Shown here: one piece after another, positions 2,982-22,448 of the stretch
How positions within the stretch are numbered: the stretch's first letter is position 1
How the letters are laid out: each line of letters starts with the position of its first letter
IMG/VR virus record: IMGVR_UViG_3300021963_000262
Span: 1-40,791 of that record
Direction: 5' to 3' (one strand)
From: a virus
DNA: 40,791 nt
Position numbers and translations under genes: made by a program
Notes under the pieces: generated by a model
The model's database searches: none
Seen by the model: the letters and a program-made list of their open reading frames with translations, nothing else
What the model was told of the DNA's origin: nothing

Positions 2982-3950
2982 ATGCCGACATCATTTAGAA
3001 ATCTAGTATCGATCAAAGGAGACGGGATCTACGCTACTGAGGAACACCTCGAGCGTGGTCGCATCTGGGTCTTTACTCCGGGCAGTAACTATACCAACTA
3101 TCAGATCTGTTGGAAAGCACCCGCAAGAGGTACAGCAGTCATTGAAATTTGGGGTGCTGGAGGATCCGGTGCTAAAATGTGCTGCTGCGGTGGCGGTCTT
3201 CCTGGCAACGCAGGTGCTTATTCTAAAAAAGCAATAAAAGTCGAATCAGGCTGTTATATCTGCGGAGCAGTAGGCCTGAGCTGTGGTAACGCAGATGCTA
3301 TCTGTTTCCGAGGCTGCTCAGATCCAACTGGAGTAACATGGACAGGAAACTGCGGTGCTTCGGGCTGTATGTGTGCTCAAGGTGGAGCAGGTGGTAGAAG
3401 TTTCTGTACTACAGGATCATCATTATATTGTTGTTTTGCTGCCAACGGCTACTGTGCTCGTGGACCATACAACGACAACTGCGGAACAATCTGTAATTAT
3501 TTTGGCGGCATCTGGATCGCCTGCGGTTACGGCGGCGACGTTAATCGCTGCGGCGGATTTTCATGTACAGCATTCTTAGGATGCCAAGGTCCATGTATTT
3601 GTTCTTATACCTATCATGTGGCAACACCTCCAGGGTACGTATCTAAATGCGGCGGCGTTGTGGTATTTGGTACAGAAAACAACAATGAATTTTCAAACTG
3701 GTCGGGCCAAGGTGCTCACCAACATCAATCAGCACTAAACGCACAGTCGCGCCAACCAACACACGGCATCCCATGGGCCTATTGTTGGGGGTTTGGAGGC
3801 GGCTGCGGCTGTTACGAAAACGAAGGTTGCTACACTTATGTAGGACCAGGATATCCAGGAATGGCACCTCATCCATGTGGCGATGTTAGAGACCACGCTC
3901 GACGTGGCGGACACGGTGCTATCCGTATTAGATTTATAGAAGGACAATAA
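2982..3950 (+). CDS. Cys/Gly-rich putative adhesin, copy 1 of 3
   Basis: 322 aa with about 30 cysteines (roughly 9 percent) and many GG pairs. The N-terminus MPTSFRNLV is shared with the next two genes. A Gly-rich core follows (IEIWGAGGSGAKM, CCCGGG, PGNAGAYSKK), then many C-x(2-8)-C spacings, an NWSGQ motif, and a C-terminal VRDHARRGGHGAIRIRF. The IEIWGAGG block resembles the glycine-rich domain of many phage fibre-tip proteins; glycine-rich adhesins such as T-even gp38 are known receptor binders. Such a cysteine load is odd for a cytoplasmically assembled virion protein and suggests bound metal or disulfides formed after lysis. Start chosen at ATG 2982 with AGGAAG upstream. Receptor binding is inferred from composition, paralogy and location. 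Confidence 0.7.
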   Translation: MPTSFRNLVSIKGDGIYATEEHLERGRIWVFTPGSNYTNYQICWKAPARGTAVIEIWGAGGSGAKMCCCGGGLPGNAGAYSKKAIKVESGCYICGAVGLSCGNADAICFRGCSDPTGVTWTGNCGASGCMCAQGGAGGRSFCTTGSSLYCCFAANGYCARGPYNDNCGTICNYFGGIWIACGYGGDVNRCGGFSCTAFLGCQGPCICSYTYHVATPPGYVSKCGGVVVFGTENNNEFSNWSGQGAHQHQSALNAQSRQPTHGIPWAYCWGFGGGCGCYENEGCYTYVGPGYPGMAPHPCGDVRDHARRGGHGAIRIRFIEGQ

Positions 3951-3951
3951 G

Positions 3952-4947
3952 ATGCCAACATCATTTAAAGGTCTTGTCCAAGCAAAATTACCGTTTATTG
4001 CCTACGAAGAAGAAAATCTCGAGCAAGGTCGTATTTGGGCCTACACTCACGGTAACGTCCGTACTAAAATGTGCGGGGAAGTTTGCTGGGTATCACCAGG
4101 TAACGGTATCGCAACTATCGAAATTTGGGGTGCTGGTGGTTCGGGTGCTAAAATGTGCTGTTGCGGTGGAGGAATCCCAGGAAACCCTGGTGCGTATTCG
4201 AAGAAAACTATCTGTGTAGCTTCGGGCTGCTTGATCACAGGATCGGTCGGCTTCAGTTGCGGTAACTCAAACGATTTATGCTTTAGGGGTTGCTCAGAAG
4301 CAACTGGTGTATGTTGGAGATCAACAACTACAAACGGATGTATGTGTGCCCAAGGCGGCCGTGGAGGAACAACTTATTGTTCAACAGGAACATCCTTGTG
4401 GTGCTGTTTTTATGCTGCAGGCTTCTGCGGCACAGGACCATTTAACGCTAACTGCGGTATTATCTGTAATTATGGTAGTGCCACAGCTTCCTGTTGTGCT
4501 GATGCGTTTGGCGGCGATGTAAATTCAAGAGGCGGATTTAGTCGTGCTAGCTTTTTTGGCTGTACACCTAGTTGTCCGTGTTCAACAATATTCCACGTGG
4601 CAACTCCTCCAGGATATTATTCCGACTGCGGTGGAGAAATTACCTATACCAACGAAGGTGACAGCGGACATTCTAACTGGAGTGGGATGGCTCTAAACGG
4701 ATTTCTGTATGGTCTGAACGTAGCTGGTCGACAACCTGGCATGGGACTTAATCCCGCTCACTCGTGTTGGACTGGTAGCAGAACCTGCGGCTGTTACGAC
4801 GGCAACGGCTGTGTTCAATTTGTTCCGCCCGGATTTCCAGGCCTGCCACCATTTCCATGTCCCGACGTTCGAGATCATGCTTATCGTGGAGGCCATGGTG
4901 CTATCCGTATCAGATTCGTACAAGATGGTACAGTAAGAGACTTATAA
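3952..4947 (+). CDS. Cys/Gly-rich putative adhesin, copy 2 of 3
   Basis: 331 aa with about 30 cysteines, beginning one base after the stop of copy 1. It keeps the same framework (MPTSFKGLV, IEIWGAGGSGAKM, CCCGGG, AYSKKTICV, CMCAQGG, NWSG, CGCY, VRDHAYRGGHGAIRIRF) while the loops between differ. It has a short extra tail (VQDGTVRDL). The AAGGA ribosome site lies in the end of copy 1, so the two are probably translationally coupled. The conserved frame with divergent loops fits a duplicated receptor-binding protein under diversifying selection. Confidence 0.7.
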   Translation: MPTSFKGLVQAKLPFIAYEEENLEQGRIWAYTHGNVRTKMCGEVCWVSPGNGIATIEIWGAGGSGAKMCCCGGGIPGNPGAYSKKTICVASGCLITGSVGFSCGNSNDLCFRGCSEATGVCWRSTTTNGCMCAQGGRGGTTYCSTGTSLWCCFYAAGFCGTGPFNANCGIICNYGSATASCCADAFGGDVNSRGGFSRASFFGCTPSCPCSTIFHVATPPGYYSDCGGEITYTNEGDSGHSNWSGMALNGFLYGLNVAGRQPGMGLNPAHSCWTGSRTCGCYDGNGCVQFVPPGFPGLPPFPCPDVRDHAYRGGHGAIRIRFVQDGTVRDL

Positions 4948-4958
4948 GAGATAAAATA

Positions 4959-5927
4959 ATGCCTACATCGTTTCAAAACTTAGTTAGATCTAGAACTACT
5001 GGTAGAGTAGAAGAAAATTTAGAAACCGGAAGGATCTATGTTTTTACTCCCGGTACCATGTACACAAATTTCTGTAACGGATTTTGTTGGAACCCTCCGT
5101 CGACCGGTAAAGCGGTCATAGAAGTTTGGGGTGCTGGTGGGTCAGGTGCTCAGATGTGTTGCTGCGGTGGAGGTACTCCAGGAAACGCCGGTGCGTATTC
5201 GAAGAAAACTATCTGTGTTAGCACAGGCGATTTTGTTAGAGGCACAATTGGTAATAGCTGTGGCAACAGTTCAGCATTATGTTTTAGAGGCTGTTCGGAC
5301 CCAACACAGGTATGTTGGACAGCCTGTAACAATACACAAAACAGTTGTATCTGTGCCCAAGGTGGAGCAGGTGGCCGCGGTATGTGTTCGACAGGAACAT
5401 CATTGTTCTGTTGTTTTGTAAACCAAAGTCATTGCTATACAGGGCCATTTAACGACAACTGCGGTATCATCTGTAACTATTTCAACGGTATATGGATTGC
5501 TTGTAGCTACGGCGGCGATGTAAACTGTTGCGGTCACTTTAGTTGTTCTGTATTCTTTGGCTGCTTGCCACAATGTCCTTGCTGTTTCCAATATCACGTA
5601 GCATCGCCTGCAGGATTTTATAGCTGCGGAGCAAACAACGTAGCAGCGTTCGGAGCAGAAGATGACAACAGACATTCAAACTGGTCAGGTCAACCATTGA
5701 TGCAGTTAACAAATGCGTTCTCTGCGATGCGTAGATCACCTACAATGGGTATCGGACATAACTATTGCTGGAGATCAGATAGAAAATGCGGATGTTACGA
5801 GATGCAGGGATGTATGCACTATGCTCCCCCAGCAACTGGCGGATATCCAACTAGCCCATGTCCAGGCGTTCGTGACCATGCTGGTCGTGGCGGCTGGGGT
5901 GCTGTTAGAATTAGATTCTTTACATAA
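4959..5927 (+). CDS. Cys/Gly-rich putative adhesin, copy 3 of 3
   Basis: 322 aa with about 33 cysteines. The frame stays open upstream to about 4857, but homology to copies 1 and 2 begins exactly at MPTSFQNLV, so the ATG at 4959 is used here. Shared blocks are IEVWGAGGSGAQM, CCCGGG, CICAQGGAGG, NDNCGIICNYF, NWSGQ and VRDHAGRGGWGAVRIRF. Copies 1 and 3 share NGIWIAC/GGIWIAC and NDNCG segments that copy 2 lacks or changes, so 1 and 3 look closer to each other. Likely a virion-tip adhesin or decoration; function inferred only. Confidence 0.7.
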   Translation: MPTSFQNLVRSRTTGRVEENLETGRIYVFTPGTMYTNFCNGFCWNPPSTGKAVIEVWGAGGSGAQMCCCGGGTPGNAGAYSKKTICVSTGDFVRGTIGNSCGNSSALCFRGCSDPTQVCWTACNNTQNSCICAQGGAGGRGMCSTGTSLFCCFVNQSHCYTGPFNDNCGIICNYFNGIWIACSYGGDVNCCGHFSCSVFFGCLPQCPCCFQYHVASPAGFYSCGANNVAAFGAEDDNRHSNWSGQPLMQLTNAFSAMRRSPTMGIGHNYCWRSDRKCGCYEMQGCMHYAPPATGGYPTSPCPGVRDHAGRGGWGAVRIRFFT

Positions 5928-5946: not shown

Positions 5947-6594
5947 ATGAGAAAAAATTTTACATTTTTACTACCAGATGAGCCATACAAAAACACCACG
6001 GCTCTAAACAAGGTACAGAATGCGGTCTACACAGGTCCGCGTTATTTCGCTATCTGTGTTATCGACGCAACAGGCGAAATCAAATACGTTGCTAGACGCG
6101 GAGAAACCGAAGCTGAATTAGATTTTGATAATCTTACAGACGACGATCCAGCAACTACTTTTTATAAGATTGATGCCGGTCAACATCCGTTCGCTGCGGC
6201 CTATCTTTTACACAGCTACGAAACAGGGGAAGTCCCAAACTTCGTAGATAATCTAACAGATGCCGACGGTAACACATGGTCCTATGAATATCATTACGAT
6301 GATAACACAGGAGCGATCGGACAATGTTTTTATGGTCAGTCATTAAAATATGTTAACAATCAATTTGTTGGTCCTGAATACAGATTACATGCTGTAACCA
6401 AAGCAAGCATGATTGAAAATTATCTAAGAATGGCTAATCAGATTGAACAGAGTCTACAGGCTAACGACTACTCAGACGAGGATCGCGAAGCACTTGAAGA
6501 ACATGTAGCATGGTTGCGTGATTTGGAAAGACGATACGCAGGAATCGATCATTGGAAAATCCCATTTTCAAATAATATACCAACATATTATTAA
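5947..6594 (+). CDS. Unknown 215-aa protein following the adhesins
   Basis: Soluble and acidic, with no signal peptide or membrane segment. The N-terminal half is mixed (FTFLLPDEPYKNTTALNKV, a YFAICVIDATGEIKYVARRG strand-turn-strand). Residues about 140-200 are helical and charged (MIENYLRMANQIEQSL, EALEEHVAWLRDLERRY), and the C-terminus reads IDHWKIPFSNNIP. It sits directly after the adhesin array, where T-even phages often carry a fibre assembly factor. A chaperone or fibre-attachment role is therefore possible, but I recognise no family. A late promoter core overlaps the preceding stop. Confidence 0.6.
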   Translation: MRKNFTFLLPDEPYKNTTALNKVQNAVYTGPRYFAICVIDATGEIKYVARRGETEAELDFDNLTDDDPATTFYKIDAGQHPFAAAYLLHSYETGEVPNFVDNLTDADGNTWSYEYHYDDNTGAIGQCFYGQSLKYVNNQFVGPEYRLHAVTKASMIENYLRMANQIEQSLQANDYSDEDREALEEHVAWLRDLERRYAGIDHWKIPFSNNIPTYY

Positions 6595-6676: not shown

Positions 6677-7618
6677 ATGGAACAACGCTCTAAAGCATTT
6701 TTTCTAAACGGTGGTGCGGGCCGTATGTTATGTGCAATACCCGCATTTGAATTATACGAAAAAGAATCCGGCGATAAAGATTTTATCATAATCTGCGAAG
6801 GCGGCACTGATGTGTTCAAAGGACATCCTACATTAGACAGCCGCACCTACGATGTTTGGCATAAAAATCTATTCGCAGAAAAGATTAAAAATCGAGATAT
6901 CGTGAGTCCAGAACCTTACAGAATCTGGGAATATTACAACCAACAGTGTTCAATAGCACAGGCATTTGACATTGAGATTAATAAGAAAGGTATAAGAAGT
7001 TTACCTAAACCCACCCTAGTCTTAAGCAAGGACGAGCTACTTACAGGAAGAAAGCTAATCGGTGATGTTAAGAAACAGCTGAAGAAAAGCAAGATCGTTA
7101 TATTCCAACCTTTTGGTAGAGGCATACAAGTAGTTGATGATTCTCTAGTCGACCCTACTTCTAGAAGTATCGAATTCAAGGATACCAAAGCCCTAATTAA
7201 AAAACTTCAAGAAAAAGACTACGGCGTGATCTTAATGAGTGAATTTAAAATAGACTTTACTGATGAAAAATTCAAAGATGAAATCGCTATGCCAGAGAAC
7301 GTTTCTATGCGTCAATGGGCAGCTATTATCAAATATGCTGATCATTTCCTAGGCTGTGATAGTCTTGGTCAACATTTAGCCTACTGCGTTGACAAACCAT
7401 CTACTGTGTTATTCGGATCTACATATCCGATCAATGTATCATACCCAGACAGTAAACTTTTCACTGTGCTTGATATGGGCGAAGAAACTAGAGAATATAG
7501 CCCTATTAGAATTACTATGGATGAAAGAGTTGATAGAAAACACGAATCTATCATGGCCATGACTCCAGAAATACAAACGTATGTTGTAGAAGCTGTCCAA
7601 GGAAAACATAAAAAATGA
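6677..7618 (+). CDS. GT9-family glycosyltransferase (ADP-heptose:LPS heptosyltransferase-like)
   Basis: 313 aa with a two-Rossmann GT-B look. The N-terminus FFLNGGAGRMLCAIPAFELYE matches the GxGD/GGxGR start of glycosyltransferase family 9. After a middle linker, KSKIVIFQPFGRG begins the C-terminal nucleotide-binding half. The family signature D-S-x-G-x-x-H is seen as DSLGQH at residues 228-233, followed by KPSTVLFGSTYP. Known GT9 enzymes move L-glycero-D-manno-heptose from ADP-heptose onto LPS core. The ADP-heptose genes at 19796-22448 make that donor plausible. The acceptor (host LPS, phage protein or other) cannot be read from sequence. GGAG ribosome site; overlaps the next gene by 4 nt (ATGA), so both are likely co-translated. 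Confidence 0.78.
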   Translation: MEQRSKAFFLNGGAGRMLCAIPAFELYEKESGDKDFIIICEGGTDVFKGHPTLDSRTYDVWHKNLFAEKIKNRDIVSPEPYRIWEYYNQQCSIAQAFDIEINKKGIRSLPKPTLVLSKDELLTGRKLIGDVKKQLKKSKIVIFQPFGRGIQVVDDSLVDPTSRSIEFKDTKALIKKLQEKDYGVILMSEFKIDFTDEKFKDEIAMPENVSMRQWAAIIKYADHFLGCDSLGQHLAYCVDKPSTVLFGSTYPINVSYPDSKLFTVLDMGEETREYSPIRITMDERVDRKHESIMAMTPEIQTYVVEAVQGKHKK

Positions 7619-9423
7619 ACGAACCGAAACTTAATTCAGGCTGGATCGCAGCCATAGCACGTGGGCATAACGCAGGTGTATGCCTTTTTAAAGACGGAGA
7701 AATCGTTTTTTCCATCGAAGAAGAACGATTAACAAGGCAAAAGTATGACGGAGGTCCGTTGGCCTCTATGGTTAAAATACTCGAGTATACCGATAAACTA
7801 GATTATCTTGTAGTCGCTCACACACAAAAATTACAGGACACTGCTGGAAGAATTGATTTTAGCGGTGACGATGTCTACACAGGCCTAGCAAGAAAGCTAG
7901 GTTTGATCAGCCGTAAAGAGGACAATTATAATCATCCTCAAGTAGTTGATTTAAGTTTCATGCATCATAAATTACATGCCGCTTGTGCTTTTTATCGCAG
8001 CGGCTTTGACGATGCTGTAGCATTGATTGTCGACGGTGCCGGTACATTCATCCAATTGATGTACGGCAATGAACCTCTTTGGGTATGGGAAGTTGAATCA
8101 ATCATTGACTGCGGCTATCCATCACAGTTTAAAACGCTTTATAAAAATTACGGCGCCAAAGAACCAGTCGCTGGAACACACATGGACCAGTGCCCATCGG
8201 ATCAGTTCGGAGAAGCTGGAGATTTTCATGAAGCATGGCTTTCGGATAGAGCAGGTATAGTTAAGACCTACGAGGCTGTCACCGAATATTGTGGGTTTTC
8301 GTCTATCGAAGCAGGAAAAACCATGGGTCTATTTCCTTATGGTCAAGCCAACGATAAGATTCCTAAGTTGTTCGATTTTACTTCGAAGGTTCCGTTGTCT
8401 AATAGGAATCTAATCGTGCCTGCCTATCCATCTTCTTCTATCGTCAATAGTGCTTTGTTTGACTATCTTGACGAATTACCTAAAGAAGGCGAGGATGTTA
8501 CCAAGCTACAGAGTCGCAGAGATCTTGCCTATGCTTGTCAGACACAGACACAGGAACAGGTTGTCCGCTTAATTAAAAAAGCAGTAGCACTAAGCGGAAA
8601 GAAAAATGTTGTAATCAGTGGCGGTTACGGTCTAAACTGTGTGGCTAACTATCATTATCTCGAGCAGCTCAAAGATGAAGGAATTAATCTTTATGTTGAA
8701 CCGATCAGTAATGACGCTGGCACAGCTATGGGGGCTGGCATGATGTTCTGGAGAGCTTTGTCAGACAGTAGAGAAAAACAAAAGCTAGACACGCTGTACC
8801 TAGGCCCACAATACACTTATACCGAAAGAGAAATCAAAGAAAAAGTACAATATGCTGGCGGTGAAGTCTTAGATGCTACTAACAAAGATGTTGTTAAACT
8901 TCTACGTGAAAAGAATATTGTTACTATATTCCAAGGGCGTTCAGAAAATGGGCCACGTGCTTTGGGTAATCGTTCTGTGCTATTTGACCCAACTTTTGAA
9001 GATGGCAAGGACTTTGTAAACACGGTTAAACGTCGTGAATATTTCCGCCCATTCGCTGGATCTATCATACATGAACATGTTCATGAGTGGTTTGATCTAC
9101 GCGGTATGGACGAAACTCCTCACATGATGTATGCAGTAAATTGTAAGCCTGGTGTAGCTGAAAAGATTCCGAGCATTATACACGTGGACGGTACTTGTAG
9201 GATACAGACTGTGAAACGCGACCAGAATCCTCATTATTACGATCTAATCAAAGAATTTTATGATCAAACAGGCATTCCTATCGTGTTTAATACTAGCTTT
9301 AATCTAGGTGGTGATCCTTTAGTAGAAACGCTAGACGATGCCATTGAAACGCTGGTAAAAAGTGATATAGAATATCTTTTCTTGCCTGAATATGGTAAGC
9401 TGATAAAGATAGTCAATAGCTAA
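7615..9423 (+). CDS. NodU/TobZ/CmcH-family O-carbamoyltransferase
   Basis: 602 aa, full length for the family. N-terminal Kae1-like domain: GHNAGVCLFKDGEIVFSIEEER (about residues 18-38), metal-ligand pattern HHxxH at 117-121 (HHKLH), and LIVDGAG around 138-143. A GGYGLNCVAN block follows in mid-protein, then GRSENGPRALGNRS from residue 441 and the C-terminal carbamoyl-transfer domain with REYFRPFAGSI and FNTSFNLGGDPLVE. Family enzymes make carbamoyl-AMP from carbamoyl phosphate and ATP, then carbamoylate a sugar or Nod-factor hydroxyl. A relative, WapO, is linked to 7-O-carbamoyl-heptose in Pseudomonas LPS core. Overlap with the GT9 gene suggests that the transferred sugar is carbamoylated (inference). 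Confidence 0.88.
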   Translation: MNEPKLNSGWIAAIARGHNAGVCLFKDGEIVFSIEEERLTRQKYDGGPLASMVKILEYTDKLDYLVVAHTQKLQDTAGRIDFSGDDVYTGLARKLGLISRKEDNYNHPQVVDLSFMHHKLHAACAFYRSGFDDAVALIVDGAGTFIQLMYGNEPLWVWEVESIIDCGYPSQFKTLYKNYGAKEPVAGTHMDQCPSDQFGEAGDFHEAWLSDRAGIVKTYEAVTEYCGFSSIEAGKTMGLFPYGQANDKIPKLFDFTSKVPLSNRNLIVPAYPSSSIVNSALFDYLDELPKEGEDVTKLQSRRDLAYACQTQTQEQVVRLIKKAVALSGKKNVVISGGYGLNCVANYHYLEQLKDEGINLYVEPISNDAGTAMGAGMMFWRALSDSREKQKLDTLYLGPQYTYTEREIKEKVQYAGGEVLDATNKDVVKLLREKNIVTIFQGRSENGPRALGNRSVLFDPTFEDGKDFVNTVKRREYFRPFAGSIIHEHVHEWFDLRGMDETPHMMYAVNCKPGVAEKIPSIIHVDGTCRIQTVKRDQNPHYYDLIKEFYDQTGIPIVFNTSFNLGGDPLVETLDDAIETLVKSDIEYLFLPEYGKLIKIVNS

Positions 9424-9424
9424 T

Positions 9425-9450
9425 AAAAACCCCCGATTTAGGGGGTTTTT
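9425..9450. terminator. Strong bidirectional-type intrinsic terminator
   Basis: AAAAACCCCC (9425-9434) and GGGGGTTTTT (9441-9450) form a 10-bp stem with a 6-base loop. The T run follows directly after the carbamoyltransferase stop. Confidence 0.9.
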
Positions 9451-9468
9451 ACTTTATATAAAAATCAG

Positions 9469-19761: not shown

Positions 19762-19796
19762 TTGACAAACAGACTCGTGACTGTATAATTACAGCA
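19762..19796 (+). promoter_or_regulatory. Consensus sigma70 promoter producing a leaderless mRNA
   Basis: TTGACA at 19762-19767 and TATAAT at 19784-19789 are both perfect hexamers, 16 bases apart. Only TACAGC separates the -10 from the ATG at 19796, so +1 should fall at or next to the A of the start codon. There is no room for a ribosome site. This is the strongest host-type promoter in the window and drives the heptose cassette. Confidence 0.8.
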
Positions 19797-20188
19797 TGAG
19801 TCTGATTTTTGTTAATGGAACTTTCGATATTCTTCATCCCGGTCACGTCGAACTTTTAAATTACGCTAAAAGTTTAGGTGGCCATCTCATGGTCGGGATC
19901 GATTCAGACGAACGAGTACGACAACTAAAAGGACCACAGCGTCCAATCAACAACCAAAAGCATAGAGCATTTATGCTTGAAAATTTAAAAGCAGTTGACG
20001 AAGTTGTTGTTTTCAATAATGATGTAGAACTTATTAACCTAGTCGCAGCCTGCGACATTATGGTCAAAGGCAGTGATTATATGGGCAAGCCCATAGTTGG
20101 TGACATTGTCTGTGACGAAATCGTATTTTTTGATATATTAGATGACTATTCAACAACCAAGATCATACAAAATATTGCTAATCGGTGA
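19796..20188 (+). CDS. hldE-C: Heptose-1-phosphate adenylyltransferase (HldE C-terminal domain homologue)
   Basis: 130 aa, the size of a single nucleotidyltransferase domain. GTFDILHPGHVELL at residues 8-21 is the classic GTFDxxHxGH signature; H14 and H17 form HxGH, which binds the nucleotide. Later VGIDSDERVRQLKGPQRPI and YSTTKIIQNI (compare the ISSTxII motif) complete the cytidylyltransferase-like fold. Known role: D-glycero-beta-D-manno-heptose 1-phosphate + ATP to ADP-heptose. In most bacteria this is the C-terminal half of bifunctional HldE; here it is a separate gene lying before the kinase. A related glycerol-3-phosphate-type nucleotidyltransferase is the alternative, but the neighbours favour heptose. 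Start is at a leaderless promoter. Confidence 0.85.
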   Translation: MSLIFVNGTFDILHPGHVELLNYAKSLGGHLMVGIDSDERVRQLKGPQRPINNQKHRAFMLENLKAVDEVVVFNNDVELINLVAACDIMVKGSDYMGKPIVGDIVCDEIVFFDILDDYSTTKIIQNIANR

Positions 20189-20891
20189 TGACTGTGTTGA
20201 TGTGTACCAGTATGGTACAGTTGATCGCATCAGCCCAGAAGCACCAGTTCCGGTGTTTAAGTTCGAGTATGAAGAACGCAAGCCGGGCATGGCAGGCAAT
20301 GTGGCCCGTAATCTAGAAGCCTTAGACTGTGAAGTAAATTATCTCCACGGAGAAACTTCTACAAAAACAAGACTAGTAGACATTCGCAGCAAACAACAGA
20401 TCGTTAGGATAGATACTGATCTAATATCGCCACCGATTGAATTCGAAACTGCGATACCTAAAGTTTATGATGCTATCGTTATCAGCGACTATAACAAAGG
20501 AACTGTTTCCTACGACATAATCGAAGAGGCAATAGCTACAAGGATTCCTGTTTTTGTTGACACGAAAAAAACGGATCTAGAAAGATTACAAGGTGCGTGG
20601 GTTAAAATCAATGAACTAGAATATAGTAAAATAAAAAGCGAATGCTCGGGACTTATTGTTACCCGAGGAGGCAAAGGGGCTAGAGCAGTATTTCATGAGT
20701 TTTCTACGTCTGCCCCCAGCGTTGAAGTTGTTGACGTTACCGGAGCAGGAGATACATTTTTAGCAGCCCTCGCCTACGGATATCTAAACACTAACAATAT
20801 TAAATCAGCTATGGAGTTTGCCACCGTAGCTGCGAGTATAACAGTACAGCATGTAGGATGCTATGCTCCAAGATTAGAGGAAATAAAATGA
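20142..20891 (+). CDS. hldE-N: Heptose-7-phosphate kinase (HldE N-terminal, PfkB/ribokinase family)
   Basis: 249 aa. Starts inside the adenylyltransferase gene (47-nt overlap, different frame), so translation is likely coupled. Family motifs: IGDDCVDVYQYG near the N-terminus, PGMAGNVARNLEAL at 48-61 (PfkB signature 1, HldE-like), SDYNKG at 115-120, and DVTGAGDTFLAAL at 198-210 with D204 as expected catalytic base. Reaction: heptose 7-phosphate + ATP to heptose 1,7-bisphosphate. It is shorter than the roughly 310-320-aa bacterial kinase domain, with shortened loops between 65 and 110 and around 160, but all signatures remain. No separate ribosome site is evident. Confidence 0.85.
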   Translation: MTIQQPRSYKILLIGDDCVDVYQYGTVDRISPEAPVPVFKFEYEERKPGMAGNVARNLEALDCEVNYLHGETSTKTRLVDIRSKQQIVRIDTDLISPPIEFETAIPKVYDAIVISDYNKGTVSYDIIEEAIATRIPVFVDTKKTDLERLQGAWVKINELEYSKIKSECSGLIVTRGGKGARAVFHEFSTSAPSVEVVDVTGAGDTFLAALAYGYLNTNNIKSAMEFATVAASITVQHVGCYAPRLEEIK

Positions 20892-21256
20892 CACAAAGAC
20901 TAACAGGTAAAGTTGATAAGGGCTGGGGCTTTGAAATAATTTGGGCCACCAATGATCACTACTGCGGCAAGATTCTAGTTTTTGAAAAGGCAGGAAATAA
21001 ATTTTCTATGCACTTTCATAGAGCCAAAGATGAAACTTGGTTCGTAAATTCTGGAAAATTTAAACTACGTTGGATTGACACCCGAGACGCTAAAATCTAT
21101 GAACAAGAATTAAATGAAGGCGATACGTGGCACAATCCACCACTCCAACCTCATCAGCTGGAAGCAATGACTGACGGTGCCATGATATTTGAAGTCAGCA
21201 CAGCAGATTCAGTCGAAGACAATTTTAGACTAGCTCCAGGAGACAGCCAAAAATGA
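20888..21256 (+). CDS. Single-domain cupin, possible sugar isomerase or epimerase
   Basis: 122 aa from ATG 20888, which overlaps the kinase stop (ATGA) and has GAGGAAAT upstream. The open frame back to 20858 is ignored because the cupin fold starts at KGWGFEIIWA. Cupin motif 1 is HFHRAKDETWFVNSG, with ligands H42, H44, E49 and turn G56. Motif 2 is around GDTWHNPPLQPHQLEA. Its closest look is the mannose-6-phosphate-isomerase-like cupins that occur in sugar-nucleotide clusters; the tail SVEDNFRLAPGDSQ is typical of these. Substrate unknown. It lies between kinase and phosphatase in a heptose operon, so action on a heptose phosphate or heptose nucleotide is plausible but unproven. Confidence 0.8.
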   Translation: MTQRLTGKVDKGWGFEIIWATNDHYCGKILVFEKAGNKFSMHFHRAKDETWFVNSGKFKLRWIDTRDAKIYEQELNEGDTWHNPPLQPHQLEAMTDGAMIFEVSTADSVEDNFRLAPGDSQK

Positions 21257-21561
21257 TTTTTATTGTTGACATCGATGGTACTATTTGTTCTATGGAATTT
21301 GACAGCAACGGTAATGTAGACTATGCTAAAACAAAACCTTACATGGATAGAATAGCTAAAATCAATCAGCTATTCGATGAAGGTCACGAAATACATTACT
21401 ACACAGCACGTGGGTCACGTTCGGGGATCGATAGGACTGAAATCACGCATAAACAGATGAACGACTGGGGAGCAAAGTATACTAGTCTTCAACTACGTAA
21501 ACCACACTATGATGTATGGATCGATGATAAGTCTGTTCATCCGGAGCATTTTTTTAAATGA
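21253..21561 (+). CDS. Minimal HAD-family phosphatase, candidate GmhB substitute
   Basis: 102 aa. All four HAD motifs are visible: DIDGT with D6 and D8 (motif I), T51 in YYTARGS (motif II), K83 (motif III) and IDDK with D91/D92 (motif IV). It has no cap domain and is about half the size of bacterial GmhB. ATGA overlaps with both neighbours make it part of the operon. In the ADP-heptose pathway heptose 1,7-bisphosphate must lose its 7-phosphate before adenylylation; this gene sits where that enzyme would be expected. Small HAD proteins of this type also occur in capsule loci with unclear substrates, so the specific reaction is inference. Confidence 0.75.
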   Translation: MIFIVDIDGTICSMEFDSNGNVDYAKTKPYMDRIAKINQLFDEGHEIHYYTARGSRSGIDRTEITHKQMNDWGAKYTSLQLRKPHYDVWIDDKSVHPEHFFK

Positions 21562-22448
21562 TAGTCGTAACTGGTGGAGCGGGATTCATTGGCTCTAATA
21601 TTGTTAAAAGATTGAACAGTCGATATGTCTCTGATATTTTAATAGTAGACGACATTAATCAAGATAAAGAATCTAACTTAAAAAATTTAACATTTACTGA
21701 TATAATGTCAACTGATGATTTTTATGGTAGATTCAATCATTGGTTAAAAGTGGAAGCTATCTTCCACGAAGGAGCGATATCTTCCACTACTGAAAAAGAC
21801 CCATTGAGGATTGATCAATATAATCTACAACCTAGTTATTGGTTAATTGACCAAGCAGTACAGAATAATTTATTTTTATCCTATGCTAGTTCAGCATCGG
21901 TATACGGAGATAGCAATACTTTCCAAGAAAATCAACCGCTGATGCCCAGATCTTTATATGCTTCTAGCAAAATGAGAATAGATCAGTATGTGTATTCGAC
22001 ACTATTAGATTATCCGGGTGCTCGAATACAAGGGTGGAGATATTTTAATGTATATGGCAACAATGAAAATCACAAAAAAGATCAGGCCAGTCCTGTGACA
22101 AAATTTAGACATCAAGCCGAGACCACAGGAAAAATCAAAGTATTTAGAGGCAGTGAAAACTTCCAAAGAGATTTCATCTGTGTTGATGATGTAGTTGATG
22201 TTAAATTAAAATCTTTTGATTTAAATTTTAATGGGATTTTTAACCTAGGAACTGGTTCTGCTGTTTCATTCCGACAGGTAGCCGAAGCAGTGGCTGAAAA
22301 ATATTCAGCAGATATAGAAGAAATTGATTTTCCTAGAGAACTAATAAATCAATATCAAAAATACACCTGCTCAGACAACACAAGGTTGTTAAGTATGCTA
22401 GGAGATTATCAGTTTAAGACTGTTGAATCTTTTCTTTCAACGACATAA
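21558..22448 (+). CDS. hldD: ADP-L-glycero-D-manno-heptose 6-epimerase (HldD)
   Basis: 296 aa extended short-chain dehydrogenase. NAD(P) site GGAGFIGS at 6-13; SSASVYG with the active-site Ser near 111-114; Y134-x3-K138 catalytic pair. HldD-specific features are the segments HEGAISSTTEKD, WRYFNVYGNNENHKKDQASPV (K173 matches the second catalytic lysine region of E. coli HldD) and SENFQRDFICVDDVVDV, plus the closing FKTVESF. It converts ADP-D,D-heptose to ADP-L,D-heptose, the donor for LPS heptosyltransferases. Start overlaps the HAD gene by ATGA. Its 3' end overlaps the convergent minus-strand gene by 35 nt. Slightly shorter than the bacterial enzyme (about 310 aa). Confidence 0.9.
   Translation: MIVVTGGAGFIGSNIVKRLNSRYVSDILIVDDINQDKESNLKNLTFTDIMSTDDFYGRFNHWLKVEAIFHEGAISSTTEKDPLRIDQYNLQPSYWLIDQAVQNNLFLSYASSASVYGDSNTFQENQPLMPRSLYASSKMRIDQYVYSTLLDYPGARIQGWRYFNVYGNNENHKKDQASPVTKFRHQAETTGKIKVFRGSENFQRDFICVDDVVDVKLKSFDLNFNGIFNLGTGSAVSFRQVAEAVAEKYSADIEEIDFPRELINQYQKYTCSDNTRLLSMLGDYQFKTVESFLSTT

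Follow-up and report, generated by a model that had tools for sequence, protein, structure and literature searches.

The window analysed here, which is the whole 40,791-nucleotide virus record IMGVR_UViG_3300021963_000262, encodes a glycosyltransferase of the GT9 fold (GT9) directly followed by a NodU/TobZ-type O-carbamoyltransferase (CARB), and carbamoyl-heptose is the best reading of what the two would make together. The original prediction placed such a carbamoylated heptose either on the lipopolysaccharide (LPS) of the host or on the phage's own structures. The gene pair, the heptose genes found elsewhere in the window and the motifs of CARB speak for the sugar, the loss of a catalytic aspartate in GT9 (Arg16) speaks against it, and as to the target, our results lean towards the phage's own Cys/Gly-rich fibres. 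Judged from sequence comparisons, these fibres are the acceptor that we tentatively favour over host LPS.

Conserved acceptor lobe and fibre neighbours

LPS heptosyltransferases are most variable in their acceptor-binding N-lobe (PMC5713226). For WaaC and WaaF we obtained a conservation of 0.23 in the acceptor lobe versus 0.34 in the donor lobe, whereas in the phage GT9 proteins the order is reversed, with 0.64 in the N-lobe, i.e. the acceptor side, and 0.54 in the donor lobe. The GT9 acceptor lobe is still conserved when cyanophages and jumbo phages are compared, two groups whose hosts are unlikely to share one LPS acceptor.

The fibre-like genes, for their part, are constant companions of the pair. 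In all 70 GT9-CARB loci with at least 4 kb of upstream sequence, one to three Cys/Gly-rich proteins lie beside GT9 (three in 63 of them), and none was found in the seven loci that have CARB only or GT9 only. The complete genome of S-CAM1 has exactly three such proteins, and those of S-SM2, P-RSM4, S-T4 and S-SSM5, all without GT9, have none. When the scan was reversed and started from the fibres, both enzymes were nearby in 59 of 78 fibre loci, many of the misses being truncated loci. A conserved acceptor lobe together with fibres that are always present thus argues for an acceptor encoded by the phage itself, and favours the fibres over host LPS.

The window carries three tandem fibre-like paralogues (2982-5927), with 9-10% Cys and 15-19% Gly. 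Each has about 30 cysteines, 21 Cys columns are at least 90% conserved, which is unusual for a phage protein, and disulfides or metal binding may matter in them. The AlphaFold2 (AF2) model of the first paralogue, with a predicted local distance difference test score (pLDDT) of only 76, matches the Pam3 fibre 7ypx (Z 15.5 over 193 residues) and shows the TNF-like plus glycine-rich domain fold of the Pam3 gp24 type; it also matches the Bxb1 tail tip and the glycine-rich domain of ALK (Z 8-10.6 for ALK), and similarity to ALK has been reported for Pam3 gp24 too (PMC9608196). By sequence, the fibre protein had no match in the PDB and, probably owing to the low-complexity filter, none by tblastn in phages. 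Adsorption proteins had been predicted on both sides of the pair, and indeed tail-fibre PHROGs occur upstream as well as downstream, in addition to the three fibre-like proteins upstream. The conserved protein between the fibres and GT9 (phrog_9740) is possibly a fibre-assembly chaperone, to judge by its position and size.

Mycobacteriophages are known to glycosylate their virions, decorating their own capsid or tail, according to work cited in PMC12619734. Self-decoration of the virion is also what we propose for the window phage, with other transferases and subunits involved there than here. To our knowledge, neither heptose nor carbamoyl has been reported in mycobacteriophage virion glycosylation.

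Layout and recurrence of the pair

The original prediction described the two genes as fused by overlap, sharing a terminator and acting together. The four-base ATGA overlap and the hairpin downstream of CARB are both present (Table 1), yet the genes remain two separate open reading frames (ORFs) and are not fused. Their linkage is borne out by recurrence of the pair as a unit. A scan of viral contigs with GT9 gave 76 loci, with CARB adjoining in nearly all of them and typically overlapping by 1-17 bases, and at 90% identity the GT9 proteins of the roughly 70 paired loci fall into 37 clusters. Among annotated phages, GT9 at 39% identity or more and CARB at 44% or more pick out the identical set of 23 records, while more distant carbamoyltransferases occur without GT9. 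Recurrence in some 70 loci, together with this matching presence, indicates that the pairing is not due to chance. The pair is also found in cultured cyanophages, and is thus common to them and to jumbo-type phages. Cellular homologues, sought in a single genome scan, amounted to only seven contigs of metagenome-assembled genomes, which are likely phage themselves.

Some loci depart from this layout. Five (L049, L050, L057, L059, L078) have an insert of 0.8-1 kb between GT9 and CARB. In four of these (L049:11018-11938, L050:2263-3213, L057:2573-3409, L078:10993-11829) a gene lies there whose product starts M(K/R)RLFxFGCSYTS and has no NCBIfam family match. Others (L037, L040-L046, L048, L058) have a second GT9 copy downstream of CARB.

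The two enzymes

GT9 matches Pfam Glyco_transf_9 (25 bits; cut-off 22) and phrog_8954 (455 bits). Searches against the PDB by single sequence or profile returned nothing meaningful, and hhalign aligned GT9 to WaaC and WaaF in the C-lobe only. The AF2 model (pLDDT 90.7) is closest to 3tov (Z 23.0), WaaF (20.8), TibC (19.8) and WaaC (19.5), then to subunits of the chloroplast NDH complex (18-19), after which the score drops to 11.8 for the next non-GT9 GT-B folds. The characterised fold neighbours are therefore WaaF, TibC and WaaC, well apart from other GT-B folds, in agreement with the heptosyltransferase-like enzyme that had been predicted. The donor-side residues of the C-lobe are kept, namely Asp228 (WaaC Asp261), His233 (WaaC His266) and, as a conservative replacement of Lys192, Arg163. 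Genomic context makes GT9 a likely ADP-heptose transferase.

CARB, predicted to be a NodU-type carbamoyltransferase, has both domains of the family (Carbam_trans_C 195 bits, Carbam_trans_N 93 bits in Pfam), with 7xb6, GdmN and TobZ as its nearest solved relatives. Among 55 homologues 135 positions are invariant. The motifs GPRALGNR and KxREYFRPFA and the residues His118, His121, Asp140 and Asp367, aligned to the PDB relatives, are invariant or nearly so; with residue roles as in TobZ, they would form the putative metal and carbamoyladenylate sites. The enzyme thus bears the predicted family's active-site motifs and looks intact. These domains and motifs are shared with TobZ, GdmN and NodU, whose substrates are small molecules or the Nod factor; the phage CARB clade, in contrast, is paired with GT9. 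A precedent for carbamoyl on heptose had also been invoked, and the literature agrees: WapO carbamoylates the LPS heptose HepII in the core of Pseudomonas aeruginosa (PMC8005017). The likeness to CARB, drawn by description, lies in a carbamoyltransferase whose proposed product is a carbamoyl-heptose, whereas WapO is encoded on the host chromosome and acts on LPS, and CARB is phage-borne.

Cyanophage carbamoyltransferases without GT9 (L170, L256, L257, L258) have a 'ferrochelatase', several 2-oxoglutarate-Fe(II) oxygenases and other fibre-like genes as neighbours; this may be a further module, of the hydroxylate-then-carbamoylate kind.

Probable supply of ADP-heptose

That the phage can make ADP-heptose was part of the original prediction, and homologues of HldE-C, HldE-N, a HAD phosphatase and HldD are indeed encoded at 19796-22448 (Table 1); the claim is largely right, with GmhA absent. 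The NCBIfam models listed are the best matches of HldE-N, HldE-C and HldD, yet all three proteins fall below the strict equivalog cut-offs. In an alignment, HldD keeps the catalytic motifs of Escherichia coli HldD; the retrieved reference began inside the gene and was completed by its first five residues.

Table 1. Positions of the features of the window that are discussed in the text
Feature	Position	Strand	Basis or remark
Cys/Gly-rich receptor-binding-fibre-like protein 1	2982..3950	+	phrog_4205; 9% Cys, 19% Gly; AF2 match
Cys/Gly-rich fibre-like protein 2 (paralogue)	3952..4947	+	alignment, composition
Cys/Gly-rich fibre-like protein 3 (paralogue)	4959..5927	+	alignment, composition; mechanical ORF from 4857, the ATG within it at 4959 suits the family
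Conserved protein of 215 aa between the fibre genes and GT9	5947..6594	+	phrog_9740
GT9-fold glycosyltransferase	6677..7618	+	313 aa; phrog_8954; invariant GGxGR motif (Arg16)
ATGA stop/start overlap of GT9 and CARB	7615..7618	+	sequence
CARB, NodU/TobZ-type O-carbamoyltransferase	7615..9423	+	602 aa; Pfam and PDB relatives
Intrinsic-terminator-like hairpin	9424..9451	+	strong, 11 pairs, directly 3' of the CARB stop
HldE-C-like D,D-heptose-1-phosphate adenylyltransferase	19796..20188	+	TIGR02199, 127 bits
HldE-N-like (PfkB) D,D-heptose-7-phosphate kinase	20142..20891	+	TIGR02198, 158 bits
Cupin, candidate sedoheptulose-7-phosphate isomerase	20858..21256 (alternative start 20888)	+	linkage; metal His/Glu residues conserved
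Short HAD phosphatase, probable GmhB substitute	21253..21561	+	weak HAD match
HldD-like ADP-heptose 6-epimerase	21558..22448	+	TIGR02197, 272 bits (cut-off 274.6)

The supply genes and the pair go together in other phages as well. In P-SSM2, S-CAM1 and S-CAM3 the heptose genes come directly after GT9-CARB, between tail-fibre genes. GT9 is present in 19 of 19 cupin-seeded heptose-cluster records of at least 40 kb, and a strong HldD match in 19 of the 27 GT9-seeded or reference records.

Two of the genes may be stand-ins. Among 122 heptose clusters, a true GmhB without the short HAD protein occurs in 44, the converse in 26, both in one and neither in 51, and this near-exclusive occurrence (Fisher p 2e-5, for loci that are not independent) suggests that the short HAD protein probably does the job of GmhB. 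It matches HAD phosphatase models and has no SIS domain; the label 'phosphoheptose isomerase' that it bears in several cyanophage records (L079:19027-19371; L173:15916-16239) looks wrong. The cupin, in turn, is tightly linked to the cluster: cupin-seeded loci contain HldD in 80 of 80 cases, HldE-N in 76 and HldE-C in 75, and the cupin occurs in 76 of 80 HldE-C-seeded loci, three of the four misses being at contig ends. Its His/Glu metal ligands are conserved, its matches to sugar-isomerase families are weak (Lyx_isomer in 18 of 42, GMP_PMI in six, MannoseP_isomer in five), and a profile search of the PDB gave oxalate decarboxylases as best matches and D-lyxose isomerase as a weaker one. From these sequences, the cupin may be a non-orthologous sedoheptulose-7-phosphate isomerase that replaces GmhA. 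Cyanophage records label it 'cysteine dioxygenase' or 'nucleotidyltransferase'. Where phages have an HldE/HldD cluster without GmhA, the cupin is almost always linked to it (L089-L254).

Identity of the virus

The photosystem gene psbA was found in none of 25 related viral contigs of up to 365 kb, in a scan in which P-SSM2 and S-SSM7 were positive. The TerL of the window virus is closest to those of PA5oct/MIJ3, Phosso and Atu_ph07, jumbo phages that infect the Gram-negative hosts Pseudomonas, Sinorhizobium and Agrobacterium. On these two grounds we rejected a cyanophage identity, and the window probably derives from a jumbo-type phage. It has no nucleotide matches to known phages, and the T4 late promoter motif TATAAATA does not occur in it. 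Near the GT9-CARB module of one viral contig lies a strong homologue of 5-aminolevulinate synthase (L068:10879-12063; 546 bits).

Proposed pathway

From gene content, order and linkage, predicted folds and conserved residues we infer a chain of catalytic steps, together with the sugar and its acceptor, in which the pair would carry out the last two reactions of a pathway for sugar decoration that the phage itself encodes. The first isomerisation would fall to the host or possibly to the linked cupin, and ADP-heptose would then be made by the phage's own HldE-N, HAD phosphatase, HldE-C and HldD. GT9 would then move the heptose onto the acceptor, using an active site unlike that of LPS heptosyltransferases, with an arginine replacing the general base. 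The co-translated CARB would convert carbamoyl phosphate and ATP to carbamoyl-adenylate, and would place the carbamoyl on a hydroxyl of the transferred heptose. The acceptor would most probably be the neighbouring Cys/Gly-rich receptor-binding fibres, so that the phage would glycosylate its own adsorption apparatus.

Points against this pathway and alternative explanations

Several observations weigh against this pathway. The position of WaaC Asp13 and TibC Asp110 is occupied by Arg16 in 64 of 64 GT9 sequences, in an N-terminal motif alignment that combined MAFFT with structurally aligned ranges (starting at model residue 4 and WaaC/WaaF residue 1); the arginine is also present in Vibrio and Aeromonas phage relatives. 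WaaC Asp13 is the proposed general base, and its replacement in D13A lowers activity 4688-fold (PMC5713226); Asp110 is its counterpart in TibC (PMC4358343). This leaves room, on the sequence, for another sugar or mechanism in GT9. GmhA (SIS_2, PF13580) was detected in none of 112 records, the window and the complete P-SSM2, S-SSM7 and S-CAM1 included. Heptose clusters without GT9 exist in seven cultured cyanophages, and in S-SM2, S-T4 and Bellamy the cluster lies inside large polysaccharide-type clusters; heptose can therefore have other uses. In Bellamy (L340:14606-17130) a different glycosyltransferase is followed by a carbamoyltransferase within the heptose/polysaccharide cluster, a layout that for Bellamy speaks in favour of a polysaccharide as the target. 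As for the fibres, in a separate lineage a single Cys-rich fibre gene adjoins capsid genes, and the fragments examined contain no GT9. The fibre linkage could come from hitch-hiking of genes within a conserved module, or from a receptor-modifying enzyme being inherited along with a receptor-binding protein, and since the loci are related, p-values overstate their independence.

Given Arg16, GT9 is no simple replica of a heptosyltransferase of the LPS core. The fold, the donor-side residues and the heptose gene set support the predicted ADP-heptose enzyme, and the lost aspartate does not. With WaaC and WaaF it shares the fold (Z 19.5-20.8), the Asp and His motif of the C-lobe and the association with ADP-heptose genes; it differs in Arg16, in its conserved acceptor lobe, in having CARB as a partner and in its setting within a fibre module. 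With the TibC/BAHT enzymes it shares a GT9-like fold, a gene beside an adhesin and, presumably, the ADP-heptose donor; unlike them it lacks an equivalent of Asp110, has 313 rather than about 400 residues, neighbours Cys/Gly-rich fibres and is accompanied by an extra carbamoyl step.

The alternative that survives best, which we consider possible if doubtful, is that during infection GT9 and CARB place carbamoyl-heptose on the LPS of the host or on some other envelope glycan, which would hide the receptor recognised by the neighbouring fibres and prevent superinfection or re-adsorption. Linkage to the fibres would then join a receptor-binder to its matched receptor-modifier. The action of WapO on HepII (PMC8005017) is consistent with this, as are the Gram-negative hosts of the TerL relatives and the GT9-less heptose genes, with the Bellamy pair, in polysaccharide clusters, and published authors interpret such genes as LPS genes (PMC3037559; PMC7378029). 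It fits poorly with an acceptor lobe that is conserved whether the phage infects cyanobacteria or other hosts, between which LPS is expected to differ, and with a location among Cys/Gly-rich proteins in a fibre module.

GT9 might instead transfer another sugar, or be a non-catalytic partner or scaffold, with CARB acting on a different hydroxyl and the heptose genes serving another glycan. The replaced aspartate, whose loss is so costly in WaaC (PMC5713226), the presence of the GT9 fold in NDH-complex subunits and the heptose clusters without GT9 would all be explained in this way. Retention of Asp228, His233 and Arg163 and the strong co-occurrence of GT9 with ADP-heptose genes argue the other way, and make this improbable.

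A variant of fibre decoration, in which GT9 is a protein S-heptosyltransferase acting on fibre thiols and CARB carbamoylates each heptose to give a carbamoyl-heptose-armoured fibre, would explain the invariant Arg16, since a thiol acceptor needs no Asp base. The strict conservation of the 21 Cys columns argues more for structural cysteines, and this variant is a long shot.

Carbamoylation of phage DNA to 5-carbamoyloxymethyl-cytosine (5cmC), with GT9 as a DNA-base glycosyltransferase, was rejected. A phage carbamoyltransferase with 5cmC activity does exist, found by MetaGPA, and resembles CARB in being phage-borne; its DNA-active clade adjoins thymidylate synthase, whereas carbamoyltransferases of unmodified contigs adjoin glycosyltransferases (PMC8670742). 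The route needs a hydroxymethylase, and 34 records, four complete phages among them, contained no thymidylate-synthase/dCMP-hydroxymethylase homologue, so that it is highly improbable. Equally hard to credit is that the two are stuffer genes without selected function, an idea raised for large LPS clusters by Sullivan et al. 2010 (PMC3037559), given dozens of invariant residues at identities down to 40%, a fixed gene order and linkage, and the purifying selection seen here.

Implications

LPS gene clusters in cyanophages are already known (PMC3037559; PMC7378029). The literature that we searched holds no paper combining cyanophage, carbamoyltransferase and heptose, and the GT9-CARB-fibre module as such is absent from it. 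Two puzzles of enzymology also emerge: a GT9 family that lacks its catalytic Asp, and a cupin that may stand in for GmhA. If self-decoration of the fibres is true, heptose genes adjacent to fibre genes gain a purpose, and genes of the P-SSM2/S-CAM1 type, now labelled 'hypothetical' and 'Nol-like carbamoyltransferase', are given a testable target. Aquatic jumbo phages and cyanophages would then share a widespread module, new to the literature searched, that makes and places a modified heptose.

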